NCBI GenBank assembly: GCA_004299845.1 | Contig: CP036201.1 | Span: forward strand, 1,922,001 to 1,986,000 | Source of the DNA: Verrucomicrobia bacterium S94 | GTDB lineage: Bacteria; Verrucomicrobiota; Kiritimatiellia; Kiritimatiellales; Pontiellaceae | Reading direction: 5' to 3' | DNA: 64,000 nt | Shown here: positions 15,735 to 32,606 of the stretch, piece by piece | How positions within the stretch are numbered: position 1 is the stretch's first letter | Layout: each line of letters opens with the position of its first letter | The notes under the pieces: model-generated | What the model was told of the DNA's origin: nothing | The model's database searches: none | The model's input: the letters and a program-made list of their open reading frames with translations, nothing else | Translations under genes and position numbers: made by a program

Positions 15735-16478
15735 CTAAAGAGTTATGAGTTCCATCTGGAGCGCACCGAGATTCTGCAGCGCGTCGAGAATCGAAATTAA
15801 ATCACGCGGCGATGCGCCAAGCTGATTCAGCACATCGGCCAGTTCCTGCACACTGGTGGTGCGGGGCATAACCATAATTTTGGCGGTCTCATCCTCCACC
15901 TCGGTCTGTACATCCTCAATGACCACCGTCTCACCCGATCGGGAAAAAGCACCGGGCTGAGAAACCCCTTGAGTTGACCCCACCCGCACCGTCAGGTTGC
16001 CATGTGCAACAATCGCCGTACTGATCATGACGTCTCCGCCCAGCACCACAGTGCCGGTGCGCTCATTCACCACCACCCGGGCCCGGCGATCGGGCGTAAC
16101 CCGCAGGGATTCAATGGTTGAAATAAACTGACTCTCCAACCCGACCTCCAGCACATCTTCCGGGATGGTAACCCGTACTGTACCCGCATCCTCAGCGACC
16201 GATCCATTATGCGAAACCGAAGCAACCACCTCGGCAATCCGCTGGGCCGTAGTAAAGTCCGGCTGGCGCAGCACCAGCTCAAGCTTACCTTCCTTGATGA
16301 ATTCAACATCATGATCGAATTTCAACGTCGCTCCGTTGGGAATACGGCCAACAGTGGGAAAATTTTTGGTTTCGGTGGACCCGCCCGGCCCGCCTACTCC
16401 AACGCTGTATCCGCCGACCACCAGAGCACCCTGCGCAATGGCATAGGTTTTTCCATCCGGATCCAGCAGCGGCGTCAT
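15735..16478 (-). CDS. flgI: P-ring protein FlgI, C-terminal fragment (frameshifted)
   Basis: This frame carries the distal two thirds of FlgI: LLDPDGKTYAIAQGALVVGG, later VVVNERTGTVVLGGDV, and the C-terminal DVLNQLGASPRDLISILDAL. It starts at an ATG overlapping the stop of the proximal fragment (TAATG). That ATG is an internal Met of normal FlgI, and the fragment has no signal peptide. Adding one G to the G7 tract at 16487-16493 joins both parts as SLQGGVLLMTPLLD. As written, no full-length P-ring protein can be made without slippage. Confidence 0.9.
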   Translation of the reverse strand: MTPLLDPDGKTYAIAQGALVVGGYSVGVGGPGGSTETKNFPTVGRIPNGATLKFDHDVEFIKEGKLELVLRQPDFTTAQRIAEVVASVSHNGSVAEDAGTVRVTIPEDVLEVGLESQFISTIESLRVTPDRRARVVVNERTGTVVLGGDVMISTAIVAHGNLTVRVGSTQGVSQPGAFSRSGETVVIEDVQTEVEDETAKIMVMPRTTSVQELADVLNQLGASPRDLISILDALQNLGALQMELITL

Positions 16479-16873
16479 TAACAGAACCCCCCCTGCAACG
16501 ATGTGGCATCCCCCATAGAGGCCACCTGGACTCCTACCCGGTCACCTCTGCGATGAAACGGCTCTACCGATGCCGTAACCATGACCACCGCCACGTTTTT
16601 ACTGCTGATATCCCCCGAATCGATAAAGATATTAAAATTTTTCATCAGGTTCGAAACCGTCCGTTTCGCCAGCTCAATATCCTTATCTCCGGTCTTATTC
16701 AAACCGACCACCACGCCGTATCCAACCAGATCGATTCGTTCAACCCCCTGAATCCGGACCAGATCCTTGAGTCGAACCTGCGCGGTTCCGATCTGGGCAC
16801 TCACGGAAAATGCCGCCAGCAGCCAGACCAAAGCGCCTATCGGAAGCCATCGCTTCATCTTTTTATGCCTCAT
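16478..16873 (-). CDS. flgI: P-ring protein FlgI, N-terminal fragment (frameshifted)
   Basis: FlgI builds the periplasmic P-ring around the rod. This part has a signal peptide (KRWLPIGALVWLLAAFSVSA) and the family block RLKDLVRIQGVERIDLVGYG, then VVGLNKTGDKD and DRVGVQVASMGDATSLQGG. Reading ends prematurely (FC-stop) after a run of seven G on the coding strand. I start it at 16873; the earlier start overlaps flgH and lacks support. It follows flgH as expected. Confidence 0.9.
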   Translation of the reverse strand: MRHKKMKRWLPIGALVWLLAAFSVSAQIGTAQVRLKDLVRIQGVERIDLVGYGVVVGLNKTGDKDIELAKRTVSNLMKNFNIFIDSGDISSKNVAVVMVTASVEPFHRRGDRVGVQVASMGDATSLQGGFC

Positions 16874-16890
16874 GATATTTCCACCGATTC

Positions 16891-20087: not shown

Positions 20088-20456
20088 CTACCAGGAAGAC
20101 AGCAGCTCCTTCTCGCCCGCCAATTCAGAAATACGGATACCAAACGTCTCATCAACCACCACAATGTCACCGCGACCGACCAGCTGCCCATTGACAATCA
20201 GATCCGCGGATTCACCAACCAGCCGATCCAGCTGAAGTACCGAACCCACACCGAGTCGGAGAAATTCTCTGACCGGCAGACTCGTACGTCCAATCTCGAC
20301 ATGTACATCCACCGGAATATCCATAATCATATTAAGATTCATTTCCTCCGAAACTTCGCTCACACCCTCTGCCGGTTCACTCAACGGAGCCGGTGAGACC
20401 GGATGCACCTCAACCTGATCTGCTTCCGCTTTTTCACTATTCATCTCTTTACTCAT
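20088..20456 (-). CDS. fliN: Flagellar motor switch protein FliN
   Basis: FliN forms the lower C-ring and binds FliH. The 122-residue protein has an acidic, Glu-rich N-terminal 45 residues and then the SpoA domain: MNMIMDIPVDVHVEIGRTSL, VREFLRLGVGSVLQLDRLVG and NGQLVGRGDIVVVDETFGIR. The start overlaps the fliM stop (ATGA). It ends the flgB-fliN operon before the terminator. Confidence 0.95.
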   Translation of the reverse strand: MSKEMNSEKAEADQVEVHPVSPAPLSEPAEGVSEVSEEMNLNMIMDIPVDVHVEIGRTSLPVREFLRLGVGSVLQLDRLVGESADLIVNGQLVGRGDIVVVDETFGIRISELAGEKELLSSW

Positions 20457-21454
20457 GATATGGTCTCCTGAATCTTTACCGTTCCCTGGCGTCGGTTCCG
20501 AATCTGCAAAGCCAGGCAGTCCCCCTTTTTCCCCAGGCCGGCATCAAAAATCACATTGTTTCCCAGCAGCACTTCCACCGGATCGTGAATCGACCGGTCC
20601 AGACATAGAACATCGCCGACCCGAAGTGTAGCCAGCTGACTGGCCCGCAGATGACTGCGCCCCAGCTCCGCACGTAATTCAAAAGGAACGCGCTTCAGGG
20701 AAGACAGAATACTTTCGTCGCTCTGTTCAACATGATCCTCATCACCACCGCTCATACGTGCACTCATGCCTTCAAGCATTTCCTGAAGCGGTTCAAGCGG
20801 ATAACAAAGCGTAAGCTGCCCCTTTACTCCTCCAACCTGCAGACGGAAAGTCAGACTCACAACCGGACTGTCATCCGGCATCACCTGCACAAACCGGGGA
20901 TCGCTTTCTACACTCTTCAACCCGAAATCAATCGGAGTAGACAGCGTCCAGGCTTCCCCCAGCAACGGCAGAAGTCCTTCGAGCCAGTTCCCGGCGATAT
21001 CCTCTTCAATAGAGGTCAGTTTCCCCGCGTCCTCACCTTCCGGCTCATGATCACCGAGAATATGCGACACCAGCAAATGCACCAATCGCAGGTCAATTTC
21101 CATCAGCACAGGCTGCTCAAAACGACTCGAGAGCTGGACCATAAAACAGGGATTTCCCACCGACCCCATAAAATTGCTGTATGATATGGTTTCCACCGAT
21201 AACAACCCGAGTTCGAATGGCAGACTGATACCCTCCGCCCCGTCTTCTGAAAGCCCCTTGGCAAAAAATTCATGTACCATTTTCAGGGCACGCAGCTGAG
21301 CCGAACTCAGGCGGCCGGGCTGGCGGAAATTATACGATGTCACCTGCACATGAGCAACCGGCTCTCCGGAATCAACCTCATCAAATTCCGGAACGCTTAC
21401 GTCGCGCAAAGCGGCCATTTCGTCAGGCGAAAGATTTTGTTCCTGTTTACTCAT
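20453..21454 (-). CDS. fliM: Flagellar motor switch protein FliM
   Basis: FliM is the middle C-ring protein and CheY-P receptor. The 333 residues have an N-terminal LSPDEMAALRDV, a recognisable form of the LSQxEIDALL CheY-binding peptide. A CheC-like middle domain (about 60-235) follows, then a C-terminal SpoA domain (RSHLRASQLATLRVGDVLCL). The retained CheY peptide implies chemotactic switching even though no che genes are in the window. Confidence 0.93.
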   Translation of the reverse strand: MSKQEQNLSPDEMAALRDVSVPEFDEVDSGEPVAHVQVTSYNFRQPGRLSSAQLRALKMVHEFFAKGLSEDGAEGISLPFELGLLSVETISYSNFMGSVGNPCFMVQLSSRFEQPVLMEIDLRLVHLLVSHILGDHEPEGEDAGKLTSIEEDIAGNWLEGLLPLLGEAWTLSTPIDFGLKSVESDPRFVQVMPDDSPVVSLTFRLQVGGVKGQLTLCYPLEPLQEMLEGMSARMSGGDEDHVEQSDESILSSLKRVPFELRAELGRSHLRASQLATLRVGDVLCLDRSIHDPVEVLLGNNVIFDAGLGKKGDCLALQIRNRRQGTVKIQETIS

Positions 21455-21458
21455 GCGT

Positions 21459-21953
21459 CTACTGAATCAGAAAATCGGAAAAATAAACATCAACCACAGC
21501 ACCGGCCATCCGGTCGCGTACCAGATCATTGACACGGTTTTTAATTTCACGCTTCAGAATGCTCCGTCCATTGCGCCCCTCCAGCTCATCGATGGTCATA
21601 TGCGAAGCCGCTTCCGATATCAAATCGCGAATAATGGCCCGGTGCGCCTCCAGCGGCGTGATGAGCTTTTCTTCGCTGAGCTCAAGTACTACCGTAAGTT
21701 TAAGCACACGGGTGGCCTTGGTTTCCGCAATATTCACATACAGGTCTTCAAATGAAACAATGAGCGGCGTTTCCGGATCTTTCCGAGGAACGTCAACAAC
21801 CGGGCGTGATCGCTGCCCCAGTATGAGTCCGGTACCGATTCCCCCGGCAATCAGGAGAATTCCTAAAATGACCATGAAAACCGTTCCCCGGCCTTTCTTT
21901 CCGTCCGCCCCGTTTTCTTCTCCGCTTTTTCTGTCAGCATTATCCTCTGCCAT
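21459..21953 (-). CDS. fliL: Flagellar basal body-associated protein FliL
   Basis: FliL surrounds the stator and supports torque. The 164-residue protein has a charged cytoplasmic N-terminus, one membrane segment (VFMVILGILLIAGGIGTGLI, about 26-46) and a periplasmic SPFH-like domain with VSFEDLYVNIAETKATRVLK. It ends with an amphipathic stretch, VVDVYFSDFLIQ, typical of FliL. It lies between the MotB-like genes and fliM. Confidence 0.9.
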   Translation of the reverse strand: MAEDNADRKSGEENGADGKKGRGTVFMVILGILLIAGGIGTGLILGQRSRPVVDVPRKDPETPLIVSFEDLYVNIAETKATRVLKLTVVLELSEEKLITPLEAHRAIIRDLISEAASHMTIDELEGRNGRSILKREIKNRVNDLVRDRMAGAVVDVYFSDFLIQ

Positions 21954-21996: not shown

Positions 21997-22707
21997 TTAC
22001 GGGGTTTCCTGTTTGATTGAAATCAATACATGATCCTTAACATGCTCGATGCCATGCAGGTCCAGCAGACACGTGTCGGATAATCCGACTGCATGTACAT
22101 ATTCCGGCAGCAACCCGGCCGTTTCAGTAAGAAAACGAGCCACAACGGCGGCACGTAACAGAGCCTGTCGCTGATTGAAAACGGGATCCTCTCCCTCATC
22201 GCACACCGCGATAACCTCCATCTCATATTCACGTAAACTGAGGAAAACCTCTCCGAGCATTTCGAGCAGTTTCACCGACTCCCGATTCAACTTGTCACTT
22301 CTCATGAACTCCACCGGAATCTGTAAAATCACCGTCAGTGAGTTATGAGTATGCACCACGGAAATCATTGAAATATTCGATAAGCCTTTTTTCCAGAGCA
22401 TACCGCGGATGTATCCATCAACCTCAGCCGTCTGATTCGGCGCACTCTTACGGATCCGGAATGAACTTGCACTGCCATCACGACTGCCGAACAACGCATT
22501 CCTGGCAAAAGGCAGTAGTCCAAGACCTCCGGTGGTACCGAACGCATCACGCACCTCTCCGAGCCCTTCAGTTCCCGGTCCCATCTGCGTACTGCCCAGA
22601 CTCATCAGCATCACAAAAAAACCAAGCAGGATACACCATAACGACGCAAACTGAACAAAATAGGAAGGAGCCAGTTCCTCCTTCGGTTTTCTAATTTTCC
22701 GGCCCAT
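21997..22707 (-). CDS. MotB-like stator paralogue lacking the membrane aspartate
   Basis: A 236-residue protein with one N-terminal membrane helix and a periplasmic OmpA/MotB-like domain (about 115-230, with VICDEGEDP-like EVIAVCDEGEDPVFNQRQ and ALLRAAVVARFL). Aligned with the upstream MotB, FSDAMSLLVAFFVML becomes FASLWCILLGFFVML, so the proton-carrying Asp is a Ser. It overlaps the upstream motB by 17 nt. It may form hetero-oligomers with MotB or act as an accessory stator protein; it cannot conduct protons by the known mechanism. Confidence 0.75.
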   Translation of the reverse strand: MGRKIRKPKEELAPSYFVQFASLWCILLGFFVMLMSLGSTQMGPGTEGLGEVRDAFGTTGGLGLLPFARNALFGSRDGSASSFRIRKSAPNQTAEVDGYIRGMLWKKGLSNISMISVVHTHNSLTVILQIPVEFMRSDKLNRESVKLLEMLGEVFLSLREYEMEVIAVCDEGEDPVFNQRQALLRAAVVARFLTETAGLLPEYVHAVGLSDTCLLDLHGIEHVKDHVLISIKQETP

Positions 22708-23494
22708 CAGTCAGCTCCTTTTCGGTCTGCGTCTGCTCGTACCATGTTCCGCGAAGAATTTTTCCGGGCATCGTGTTCAACTTTGATTCGCCGGCCCCGA
22801 TAAACTGAATTTCAACGGTACCATCCACCGCCTCACCGACGGGCATGCGGCGCACCACCTGAACCGCAGCACTCATTTTTTTACGATTCCCGCCCTGCTG
22901 GATCAACAGTTCCTCGACAGCCAGCGCCTGCTCAATACCAAGCCCCCATGAAGTCGTATACCCCGGAATCCGTACCGGCACATTGTCAGGCAGTATGACA
23001 GAAACCCGGATCTCGCTTTCCACCGTATGCATCAGATCAGCCGCCACCTGCCATGCTTCGTGATCAGGATCCAGCAGTTCCGCAGTGCCCGGTTCAAACG
23101 CGGAAGTGCGGGTAACCACCAAAACGACGCCGCTCTTGAGCAGGTGCAGATAATAGTCCGGAGAATTTGTTTTAATGATCTTCCGGGCCGGTTGATCCTT
23201 CAGCGCTTTCTGACTGTATTCAAGAGAAGTTGCCGATGCATTTTTGGATACCACACTCCGGTCGCCCTCCGTTTCATCCGGGCTATCCACGCGGCCGACT
23301 GTCGTTGCCAGAGGAAGCGGGACCGCACGTAAACCGCCTTTAAGCGCCCCCATCATATTCTGCAGCGAATGCTCTTCAAAATCGGCAAAAGAAACCAGCA
23401 TCACAAAAAATGCTACCAGCAGCGACATCGCATCGCTAAACGTCACAACCCATAAAGGGCATCCTTCCTGATTTGGTTCTCTGCGCGGGAGCAT
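22691..23494 (-). CDS. motB: Flagellar motor stator protein MotB
   Basis: MotB anchors the stator to peptidoglycan and carries the ion-binding aspartate. The N-terminal region PLWVVTFSDAMSLLVAFFVM contains this Asp in a single membrane helix (about residues 13-36). The periplasmic half is a divergent OmpA-like domain (VVVTRTSAFEPGTAELLDPD, then WGLGIEQALAVEELL). I start at 23494 (MLPRREPNQEG), just after the motA stop; the longer frame runs back into motA. The OmpA domain is less conserved than usual. Confidence 0.88.
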   Translation of the reverse strand: MLPRREPNQEGCPLWVVTFSDAMSLLVAFFVMLVSFADFEEHSLQNMMGALKGGLRAVPLPLATTVGRVDSPDETEGDRSVVSKNASATSLEYSQKALKDQPARKIIKTNSPDYYLHLLKSGVVLVVTRTSAFEPGTAELLDPDHEAWQVAADLMHTVESEIRVSVILPDNVPVRIPGYTTSWGLGIEQALAVEELLIQQGGNRKKMSAAVQVVRRMPVGEAVDGTVEIQFIGAGESKLNTMPGKILRGTWYEQTQTEKELTDGPEN

Positions 23495-23510: not shown

Positions 23511-24275
23511 TCAGTCTTTGATCGTCTTCTGCCGGATATTCGGCGGAATGAAAGCGCGAAGTTTTTCCGCCACGATGCGCGGACTATGCCCTTCCTGAAT
23601 AGCCACAATACCTTCGATCACCATGGTTTTAAGAGCAACCTCTTCCATTGTACGCTGCTCAAGCTTACCCGCCGTCGGTAATGCAATCAGATTGGCCACC
23701 ATAGCGCCATACATCGTCGTCAGCAAAGCCACCGCCATACCGCTCCCCAATGATTTTGGATCGGACATGTTCTGCAGCATCGCCACCAATCCCACCAGCG
23801 TACCGATCATCCCGAAAGCCGGCGCATAATTACCCAGCGCTTTAAAAATCCCCTGTCCCACAATATGGCGTTCCTGCATCGCCGCCAGATCATCCTCAAG
23901 GACGGAACGCAGTACCTCCATGGTGTTGCCATCCACCGCCATCTGGAATCCCTTTTTCATAAAGGGATCCGTAAGCTGTTCAATTTCACTTTCCAGCGCC
24001 AGCAAACCGTCACGGCGGGCACGCACCGCATAATCAGTGAGCTGCTCGTAAAGAGTCAGATAATCCTGCTCCTTAACAAACAGAGCTTTACGTGCCACTT
24101 TGACCACCGCCATTACCTGCGGCAGCGGATAATGGATCAGTGTGGCAGCAATCGCACCGCCCACAGTAATGAGGATCGATGGCGCATTGAAGAAACCGCT
24201 TCCGCCGCCCATCGCAATGGCAATAAAAACCAGCAGCCATCCAAGGACTGCACCAACTATGCTTCCAATATCCAT
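23511..24275 (-). CDS. motA: Flagellar motor stator protein MotA
   Basis: MotA is the four-helix stator subunit that presses on FliG. The 254-residue protein has helices at about 3-22 and 30-50 (SILITVGGAIAATLIHYPLP), the cytoplasmic loop with charged residues, and helices 3-4 with APAFGMIGTLVGLVAMLQNM and AVALLTTMYGAMVANLIALP. The order flgE-flbD-motA-motB is the common one. Confidence 0.96.
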   Translation of the reverse strand: MDIGSIVGAVLGWLLVFIAIAMGGGSGFFNAPSILITVGGAIAATLIHYPLPQVMAVVKVARKALFVKEQDYLTLYEQLTDYAVRARRDGLLALESEIEQLTDPFMKKGFQMAVDGNTMEVLRSVLEDDLAAMQERHIVGQGIFKALGNYAPAFGMIGTLVGLVAMLQNMSDPKSLGSGMAVALLTTMYGAMVANLIALPTAGKLEQRTMEEVALKTMVIEGIVAIQEGHSPRIVAEKLRAFIPPNIRQKTIKD

Positions 24276-29715: not shown

Positions 29716-30733
29716 ATTCCTCCTCCGAAGTGCCTATTTTGATTTCTCCCTGTTCCGCCAGAGACCGGGCCACCTGCACGATCCGTTTCTGTTGGGCCAG
29801 CACTTCCGAGAACGGCATTTTCCCGGCATATTCCATCTCTTCCTTCAGACTGTCCGCCGCCCGATGCGACATATTATTCAGGAAACGATCGCGCACCTCT
29901 TCTGAAGTTTTGCGCAATGCCGTGGCCAATACACCCGTCTCCAGCTCCTGCATGATCCGGCGTACTGCGGCATCATCCAGCCGGGCGATGTCTTCAAACA
30001 CAAACATCCGGTCACGAACCAGATCGGCCAGTTCAGGATCCTGTCTGCCGAGTTCCTCAAGCATCGCATCCGCCACCTCCTTCGAAGAACGCTGCAGTAT
30101 GGAAACCAGTGCATCAATGCGTTCCGCATCATCCTGTTTGCGCTTTACAGAAGAAGGCAAACGGGCCACCAGATGCTGTTCAATCCGGTCGATAACCCGC
30201 TCCGGCGGAAGCTCTGCGGTCGCAATATGAATGACGACTTTGTTCCGGACTTCCTCTTCGAGATGAGAGAGAATTTCTGAGGCCAGTTGCGATGGAAGAA
30301 AACGCAGCACCACCGCAATCACACTCGAAGATTCCGCCTCCAGTATCCGCGCAATTTCCTCCGGTTTACGGGAGGCCAGCGCGCCAAAACGGTTTCCGGC
30401 CATTTGGCCGAGCTCAAGCATGGAAGCCGCCTGCTGTTCACCAACCACCTTACTGAGCAGACCGACCGCGAGGTTATCATTCCCGTGTACCGCATCCCCG
30501 TAGGCCTTAAGCTCCTGAACACTTTCAGCCAGCGCCTTCTTATATAAATTTCCCGGAACGATTCCCAGATTCCGGATACTTTCAGCCGCCCGGCTCATGA
30601 TATGCGGATCCAGTTCCCGCATCACTTCCGCCGCCACATCCGGTTCCAGGCTGGCAAGCACAACCGCCACCCGTTTTTCCGGAGTCATCTCCTGAGCAAC
30701 CAATGCATGTTCCGACATATCCACTCCACTCAT
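29708..30733 (-). CDS. fliG: Flagellar motor switch protein FliG
   Basis: FliG couples the stator to the MS-ring. From the ATG at 30733, which overlaps the fliF stop as TAATG, it has about 341 residues. The N-domain starts TPEKRVAVVLASLEPDVAAE, the middle carries RKPEEIARILEAESSSVIAV, and the C-terminal torque helix carries the expected charged pairs (ELADLVRDRMFVFEDIARLD). An alternative start lies 15 nt downstream (MSEHALVA). Confidence 0.95.
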   Translation of the reverse strand: MSGVDMSEHALVAQEMTPEKRVAVVLASLEPDVAAEVMRELDPHIMSRAAESIRNLGIVPGNLYKKALAESVQELKAYGDAVHGNDNLAVGLLSKVVGEQQAASMLELGQMAGNRFGALASRKPEEIARILEAESSSVIAVVLRFLPSQLASEILSHLEEEVRNKVVIHIATAELPPERVIDRIEQHLVARLPSSVKRKQDDAERIDALVSILQRSSKEVADAMLEELGRQDPELADLVRDRMFVFEDIARLDDAAVRRIMQELETGVLATALRKTSEEVRDRFLNNMSHRAADSLKEEMEYAGKMPFSEVLAQQKRIVQVARSLAEQGEIKIGTSEEEYV

Positions 30734-31899
30734 TATCGGTTCCATTCCGCCGCGTTCGTAATCCACGCCGCAACGGTTTTGGGATTGTTTCTGGCCAGTC
30801 GGTCAACCGTTTCAATATAATTTTCTATATCCACCGGCTCCTCCTGCAGAATGTGCTCCCGCTCTTCCTGACGCGCTTCATTAATCGGGGTCTCCAGCGT
30901 AGGCGTACTCGCCAGCAGAACACGTTTCACTTTACGGCTTGCTCCGAAAACGATACACAGCGCCACAAAACCGCCCAGTCCCCGGAACAGCGCATCATAA
31001 CTCACGGGCAGCCGCTCCCACCATTCAGGCTCAGCCGGCGGAGGAGGATCAACAAACGGCATTTCCGTAACATGGATCGTATCTGAGCGATCGGGATTCA
31101 CACCCAGCGCATTCGAAACCAGTTCAGAAATGGCGGTAATTTCCGCTTCAGTTCGGGGCGAATCCCCTTCCTGTGCGAGACAGACCGCCACCGAAAGTTT
31201 TTCAATCCGAATGCCTTTCTGCCGAACCATGCTTACATTCGAGGGCACCACATATTCCGTATAAATCTCTTCGCTCTTATCCTTGTTGCCGCCGGTATCA
31301 AGTTTCATGTCGGTCGGATTCCCGATCGATACATTGGCCGTCACACCGGCCCGTCCGCCGGCACGGCTGCTCCCGACGGATTTATCTTCCGAAACAATTC
31401 GTTCCGACGTTGCCACCCGGTTTTCTGCATCGAACATTTCACTGCGCTGCTCGGTATCACTGAAGTCCAGCGAAACATTCACCCGCACAATGGAATTTCC
31501 CGAACCCAGCGCACGATCCAGAATAGCCTGCGCTTTTTCCACCAGACGCTGCTCTGTACGCTCCTGTACATCAAGCTGCTCATTGCCATGCTCCATCACA
31601 TTGTCCGCACTGTGCGAACGCGTCAGCAGATGACCGGCCTGATCCGTTACAGTAACCTGCATTGGATCCAGATTCTGAACCGAACTGGCCAGCAGATGAA
31701 CAATACTCTGAACCTGGGCATCGCCAATCGTGGCAGAACCATTAAGCGTAAGCAGGACCGACGCCCGTGAACGACGCTCCTCTTCAGAGGAAAAAAGCTG
31801 TTCCTTGGGAAGCACCAGCATTACCCGCGCGGCACGAATGCCCTCCATGGCACTGATGGTGCGCTCAAGCTCTCCCTGCAGCGCCCGCTGATAATTCAC
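30733..31899 (-). CDS. fliF: Flagellar MS-ring protein FliF, C-terminal fragment (frameshifted)
   Basis: The frame holds most of FliF: NYQRALQGELERTISAMEGI, KEQLFSSEEERRSRASVLLT, the ring-building domain, a second membrane segment (GLGGFVALCIVFGAS, about residue 300) and the FliG-binding C-terminus ending AAEWNR. The apparent GTG start at 31899 is internal; the coding frame is open to about 31968. It joins the N-terminal fragment if one G is added to the G4 run at 31965-31968, giving LPGDSSTGFELFEQPKFG. Confidence 0.9.
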   Translation of the reverse strand: MNYQRALQGELERTISAMEGIRAARVMLVLPKEQLFSSEEERRSRASVLLTLNGSATIGDAQVQSIVHLLASSVQNLDPMQVTVTDQAGHLLTRSHSADNVMEHGNEQLDVQERTEQRLVEKAQAILDRALGSGNSIVRVNVSLDFSDTEQRSEMFDAENRVATSERIVSEDKSVGSSRAGGRAGVTANVSIGNPTDMKLDTGGNKDKSEEIYTEYVVPSNVSMVRQKGIRIEKLSVAVCLAQEGDSPRTEAEITAISELVSNALGVNPDRSDTIHVTEMPFVDPPPPAEPEWWERLPVSYDALFRGLGGFVALCIVFGASRKVKRVLLASTPTLETPINEARQEEREHILQEEPVDIENYIETVDRLARNNPKTVAAWITNAAEWNR

Positions 31900-32282
31900 C
31901 TTCTGCGCAAAATCTGTAAGTCCGAATTTGGGTTGCTCAAACAGTTCGAACCCGGTCGAGGAATCCCCGGAAGTCCTTCCGCCGCCAGCATCAGGCGTGC
32001 GGTGTAGAGCCGGGAGGCCGGCACCGAAATCGTCATCCCGGACTGACCGAGTTTCACCGGAATTTTTGCCTCCTCCAGTTTTTCGCGCATTTGCGCTGAA
32101 TCCGTCAGCGTAAGGTTGCTGTAAAGCACCCGATAGTCCGGCCGGCTTCCCCAGTAGAGTAAGCCCCCGAGAACTGTCAGGGCCACAACCAGCGACATGA
32201 TCACACTCATACGCTGAGACACACCGAACTGTCGCCAGATTTCTCCGATCTGTCTTGATAACATGCTTAAAGGCTCTCGCAT
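31896..32282 (-). CDS. fliF: Flagellar MS-ring protein FliF, N-terminal fragment (frameshifted)
   Basis: FliF forms the MS-ring in the inner membrane and starts basal-body assembly. This part holds the first membrane helix (VIMSLVVALTVLGGLLYWGS, about 27-46) and the first ring domain: RPDYRVLYSNLTLTDSAQMR and ISVPASRLYTARLMLAAEGL. After AEGLPG the frame changes into unrelated residues and stops. Without correction the MS-ring could not form, so the base loss should be verified before calling the locus dead. Confidence 0.9.
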   Translation of the reverse strand: MREPLSMLSRQIGEIWRQFGVSQRMSVIMSLVVALTVLGGLLYWGSRPDYRVLYSNLTLTDSAQMREKLEEAKIPVKLGQSGMTISVPASRLYTARLMLAAEGLPGIPRPGSNCLSNPNSDLQILRRR

Positions 32283-32297
32283 CGTTCTCTAAACTCC

Positions 32298-32606
32298 CTA
32301 CGCCTGCATCTTCATCAGTTCCTGGTATGCATCCATCAGTCGGTTGCGCACACCCAGCATTAAATCGAAAGCCACTCCGGCCTCCTGCACCTTTACCGCC
32401 ACCTGATGAACATCCGTCACTTTTCCGGAAACCACATCGCTCACGGAGGCATCAGCCGCCTTTTGCATACCGTCCACTTTATTCACCAGGTCGGTCAGTA
32501 AATCGCCGAATCCCTGCCCGCCGGCCGGCGAAACAGGATGCTCTGCAGCACCGGACACCCGCCCCGGCTGCGACACTCCATTCAAAGATAATGCTGTAAT
32601 ATCCAC
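32298..32606 (-). CDS. fliE: Flagellar hook-basal body complex protein FliE
   Basis: FliE is the MS-ring/rod junction protein and an early export substrate. The 102-residue protein has the C-terminal signature DVHQVAVKVQEAGVAFDLML followed by GVRNRLMDAYQELMKMQ. The conserved order flgB-flgC-fliE-fliF-fliG is kept. Confidence 0.94.
   Translation of the reverse strand: MDITALSLNGVSQPGRVSGAAEHPVSPAGGQGFGDLLTDLVNKVDGMQKAADASVSDVVSGKVTDVHQVAVKVQEAGVAFDLMLGVRNRLMDAYQELMKMQA

Follow-up and report, generated by a model that had tools for sequence, protein, structure and literature searches.

A tandem pair of MotB-type genes behind a single motA

The window analysed here is a stretch of 64,000 nucleotides (positions 1,922,001–1,986,000 of CP036201.1) from the genome of Verrucomicrobia bacterium S94, which consists of one contig of 4.1 Mb and has the Pontiellaceae, a family placed in Kiritimatiellota (PMC10880615), as its closest named relatives. 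On the minus strand of this window, a single gene for the stator A subunit is followed by two genes for MotB-type proteins, which we call motB1 and motB2, and the product of the second lacks the Asp that binds the ion in MotB. The motB1 gene (22691–23494, minus strand) encodes a protein of 267 amino acids with a degenerate OmpA-like domain and an ion-binding Asp at position 21 (GAT codon, 23432–23434, minus strand); its length is counted from the ATG codon, as the listed open reading frame (ORF) starts at a TTG and extends upstream into motA. The motB2 gene (21997–22707, minus strand) encodes 236 amino acids comprising a transmembrane (TM) helix (residues 15–37), a plug-like segment (residues ~41–66) and an OmpA-like domain (residues ~113–234), and at the place of the Asp it has Ser22 (TCG codon, 22642–22644, minus strand). 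The two helices align without gaps. Tandem MotB genes, an ungapped helix alignment and the replacement of the Asp by Ser in the second copy had all been reported in a first-pass annotation of this DNA, and each is confirmed here. The genes overlap by 17 nucleotides (22691–22707, minus strand), which suggests that their translation is coupled.

The unit has no A gene other than motA (23511–24275, minus strand), whose product looks canonical by sequence. Downstream of motB2 lie fliL (21459–21953), fliM (20453–21454) and fliN (20088–20456), all on the minus strand and all conserved neighbours. They belong to a near-complete flagellar cluster on that strand with the order fliF-fliG-fliH-fliI-fliJ-x-fliK-flgD-flgE-...-motA-motB1-motB2-fliL-fliM-fliN-flgF-flgG-flgA-flgH, in which flgA and some small genes were assigned by reading and position only. 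Two genes of the cluster have broken frames. The flgI gene (15735–16880, minus strand) is split over two frames, with its N-terminal part outside the frame of a 247-residue ORF, which reflects either an assembly error or decay; fliF is also split (~31890–32300, minus strand), its N-terminal part lying in a frame other than that of the ORF at 30733–31899. These breaks cast doubt either on the function of the flagellum or on the base accuracy of the assembly.

Distribution and gene order across the phylum

Homologues were sought in 388 genomes drawn from the phylum, and further in the class and several orders; the loci were fetched and their genes called locally, most of the genomes being fragmented drafts. 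The searches yielded 29 true MotB2 proteins, each from a different genome. The usual order at these loci is motA-motB1-motB2-fliL-fliM-fliN, and motB1 stands directly upstream of motB2 in 26 of the 29, so that a single A gene is grouped with two different B genes. MotB2 is absent from most of the phylum's genomes (any match to the Pfam family MotB_plug occurs in 55 of the 388), and the other flagellates carry a single MotB. No relative of MotB2 was found in the viral contigs and plasmids searched. Among named genomes scanned with short patterns, only Pontiellaceae matched, the patterns being specific to that family and hence uninformative on other phyla.

At the three exceptional loci, the contig ends beside motB2 (G395) or motB2 starts directly behind motA (G271 and G458). 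No MotB1 was found in G271, a genome that is 86% complete. In G458, an Asp-bearing MotB1 is encoded on another contig, so both B proteins are retained even when their genes are unlinked, and the idea that an Asp-less MotB occurs alone in genus g157 was rejected for this genome. The unlinked motB1 of G458 (L140:877–1680) adjoins a sensor-kinase frame. A further genome, G131, carries a divergent motA-motB1-motB2 triplet away from flagellar genes (L093:5031–7277), followed by a CitMHS-type transporter frame, and no FliM was detected in this 92% complete genome; its stator has possibly been reused for something else. With one genome each, G458 and G131 suggest that the partners of MotB2 are MotA and MotB1 and not the basal body.

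The ion site in MotB1 and MotB2

The ion-site Asp is present in 27 of 27 MotB1 proteins and in 1 of 29 MotB2 proteins, this being the comparison of homologues that the first-pass annotation had proposed. At this place MotB2 has Ser (14), Ala (11), Val (1), Ile (1), Gly (1) or Asp (1), that is, Ser, Ala or Gly in 26 of the 29. For comparison, 24 single-MotB loci of the phylum were scanned with a helix pattern; L072 was excluded as the pattern had matched the wrong place, and the Asp is present in all 23 usable loci. The residues around the site also set the three groups apart, with A/S-D-F/L in the single MotBs (23/23), G-D-C/A in MotB1 and T/A-S/A-L in MotB2, so that both B helices diverge from those of the single MotBs.

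The residue preceding the Asp is a dimer-interface position (A31 in Escherichia coli; PMC10659934). It is Gly in 26 of 27 MotB1 proteins and Thr, Ala, Ser or Cys in MotB2, and the commonest MotB1/MotB2 pair, G/T (13 of 27), is close in volume to the A/A pair that is usual there, a combination that would fit hetero-pairing of the two proteins. The window MotB1 has Ser20 (23435–23437) at this position, and its branch is longer than those of near relatives.

The first-pass annotation had named relatives with an Asp in the second protein as evidence against its proposal, and one such relative exists. In G170 both B proteins carry the residue, its MotB2 (L030:3176–3850) being the only one to do so. 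This protein lies within the Asp-less MotB2 clade (the group containing it has support of 97/82, and less in a tree with single MotBs added), and because of this nesting a regain of the Asp is likelier than its retention.

MotB2 is an old paralogue under purifying selection

A tree of 55 sequences places MotB1 and MotB2 on opposite sides of one branch with 100/100 support. When 14 single MotBs from the phylum were added, MotB1 and MotB2 formed clades supported at 99.9/100 and 97.6/100, respectively, and the single MotBs were grouped at 94.2/99. Since each paralogue forms one clade, the two arose by a single old split, and they have been inherited jointly since; the branching orders inside the two clades are broadly alike. 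Pairwise ratios of non-synonymous to synonymous substitution rates (dN/dS) among near relatives are 0.06–0.11 for MotB2, 0.07–0.16 for MotB1, 0.10–0.12 for FliL and 0.01–0.02 for MotA, and by this measure MotB2 is a working gene under purifying selection.

A decaying duplicate that has lost its Asp and has no present role would be in keeping with the loss itself, with the degenerate binding motif of the OmpA-like domain and with the broken flgI and fliF frames in the window assembly. We consider this very improbable, as MotB2 forms one old clade retained in place across the phylum and its dN/dS is not above that of MotB1 or FliL. Chance mutation, sequencing error and a pseudogene were rejected, given the absence of the Asp from 28 of 29 MotB2 proteins, its presence in every MotB1 and the low dN/dS of MotB2.

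MotB2 retains the helix and plug of a stator B subunit

Within MotB2 the TM helix has a mean pairwise identity of 0.55 and the remainder of the protein 0.26; the MotB1 helix has 0.71, and the FliL TM anchor, taken from the same 23 genomes, 0.30. Because its conservation lies far above that of the FliL anchor, the MotB2 helix appears to be no plain anchor, and its sequence suggests packing against specific partners. A profile of MotB2 matched solved PomB over the helix-plus-plug stretch (positions 9–56; 1.4e-8) and Clostridium sporogenes MotB over most of its length (3.8e-14). The plug segment, with an identity of 0.44 over residues 38–66, aligns by sequence with the plug region of PomB. The window motB2 product scores 19.4 bits against MotB_plug (cut-off 24) and that of motB1 43 bits; several motB2 relatives of the same clade exceed the cut-off, with up to 40 bits. 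An OmpA-like domain was detected in MotB2 by profile, and a model built from five sequences, with a mean predicted local distance difference test score of 61 and so too weak for detail, shows a helix at residues 15–37 followed by a C-terminal domain of alternating strands and helices, an order that fits an OmpA-like domain. The HTD motif usual in the peptidoglycan-binding domain is missing from both MotB1 and MotB2, those of the window (21997–23494) included; the Arg of the OmpA-like loop is kept in most MotB2 proteins, and Gln takes its place in Pontiellaceae MotB1. Judged on sequence, MotB2 is homologous to MotB, yet without the defining Asp it is not classed as MotB proper.

These features bear on the other role that the first-pass annotation had considered, that of an accessory ring protein. 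MotB2 could act outside the MotA pore as part of a ring, as a FliL-like scaffold or as a peptidoglycan tether, with its helix serving just as an anchor. The position of motB2 between motB1 and fliL and the presence of an OmpA-like domain are consistent with such a role, and MotY, an OmpA-like motor protein, shows that accessory rings exist. MotY and other accessory motor proteins of this kind likewise have an OmpA-like periplasmic domain near the stator, but they are not known to carry the pore helix and plug of MotB. MotB2 retains the FF and plug sequence specific to MotB, its helix far exceeds the FliL anchor in conservation, no FliL domain was matched in it (FliL being the separate next gene), and the triplet is maintained in G131, where no FliM was detected and no flagellar genes adjoin it. 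The conservation of the helix and the persistence of the motA-motB1-motB2 unit make an accessory role unlikely.

A proposed heterodimeric stator with one ion site

The pairing of two B genes, one for an Asp-less protein, suggests that the motor unit is asymmetric, a single ion site being at work in place of the textbook two. The explanation we favour, with a probability of about 0.5, is a three-protein stator in which MotA surrounds a heterodimer of MotB1 and MotB2. MotA would form the usual five-subunit ring, and the central pair would consist of one MotB1 and one MotB2 and not of two identical copies. MotB1 would bear the sole ion-binding Asp, and MotB2 would fill the second pore position with a small neutral residue (Ser or Ala) while keeping its helix, plug and OmpA-like domain. 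That MotB2 is a real stator subunit acting with MotA and MotB1 is partly supported, the conservation of its helix, the persistent triplet and the arrangements in G458 and G131 all favouring it indirectly. The first-pass annotation had proposed a stator heterodimer with one dead site; the tandem pair and the loss of the Asp hold across the phylum; the heterodimer itself is inferred.

In the turnstile model, as set out in a 2022 review (PMC9389320), a site loads a proton from one half-channel and, with the rotation of the ring, unloads it into another, and two sites together pass one proton per 36 degrees. Applied to a single site, the same rules would allow one proton per 72 degrees. The MotB1/MotB2 stator would then pass five ions for each full rotation of MotA, advancing 72 degrees at a time, where ten ions and 36-degree steps are otherwise expected, on condition that one site suffices for both half-channels, as in that model. 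The full proposal, a phylum-wide heterodimeric flagellar stator with a single ion site and a five-ion cycle, is more tentative, and we hold it at somewhat short of even odds.

The leading alternative, though an unlikely one, is that two separate stators share one MotA: an active MotA5(MotB1)2 and an inactive, non-conducting MotA5(MotB2)2 that would bind to the motor and serve as a spacer, brake or tether. The helix, plug and OmpA-like domain of MotB2 would suffice for a homodimer, motA directly adjoins motB2 in G271 and G458, and the Asp-bearing MotB2 of G170 could act alone. However, an inactive MotB2 stator would compete with the active one, and separate stators offer no obvious benefit from the constant pairing of MotB1 with MotB2 since before the lineages diverged. 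The different substitutions of the paralogues at the same interface position also weakly suggest hetero-pairing.

Several observations weigh against the heterodimeric stator. Asp mutants of E. coli MotB are inactive and dominant, a warning that a single inactive site may be enough to halt a normal stator. The MotB2 of G170 has the Asp. The pairing seen at the interface position cannot be separated from shared ancestry, and MotB1 is nearly constant at that position. Beyond what is shared with FliM and MotA, MotB1 and MotB2 show a weak signal of co-evolution (partial r = 0.28), no stronger than that of MotB2 and FliL (0.27), so that tree distances do not single out MotB1 over FliL as the partner of MotB2. 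Finally, Pontiella agarivorans has the full gene set, yet neither motility nor flagella were seen in it (PMC10880615).

Relation to known motors

The window stator resembles MotA5MotB2 and PomA5PomB2 in its canonical MotA, in the Asp-bearing MotB1 helix and in its flagellar operon context, and MotB2 keeps the register of the TM helix, a plug-like segment and a recognisable OmpA-like domain. It differs in that each A gene is accompanied by two B genes that are not identical, the second lacking the Asp, and in the absence of the usual HTD motif from both OmpA-like domains. The closest design is the AglRQS gliding motor of Myxococcus xanthus, in which one MotA/TolQ-type and two different MotB/TolR-type subunits are encoded in one cluster. 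Its B subunits are described as ExbD/TolR-type (PMC3169522) and drive gliding, whereas those found here combine MotB_plug and OmpA-like regions in a flagellar setting. The proton-binding site of AglQ is reported as essential (PMC9120999), and whether AglQ and AglS form homodimers or heterodimers is treated as an open question in the 2022 review (PMC9389320), a question on which the MotB1/MotB2 case bears. GldLM belongs to the same broad class of 5:2 motors; here, by contrast, the homology of MotB2 to MotB is clear.

Models of MotAB-type motors presume two equivalent ion sites, and the same review calls ten-fold rotational symmetry almost certainly universal (PMC9389320). If the proposal is true, a single-site stator would be an exception to the ten-fold periodicity that is expected of all 5:2 motors. 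A naturally occurring stator in which one site is live and the other dead would put the need for both directly to the test, together with the effect of a halved ion cost on torque and speed. The MotB Asp has been described as universally conserved in a phylogeny that retained only FAD, YAD or LAD sequences (PMC7787011), a filter by which Asp-less B subunits could escape notice. Passages found by term in a 2025 survey of MotAB evolution (PMC12505986) do not describe Asp-less B subunits, and an Asp-less flagellar MotB is not described in the titles, abstracts and term-matched passages of the literature searched.

Two further MotB1-like sequences came out of the phylum searches. A second match in G131 (C303) has no MotB helix in its frame and was left out. 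In G095, a 1.95-Mb genome without FliM, a 91-residue MotB1 remnant (L094:5690–5962) is apparently a relic of lost flagella.
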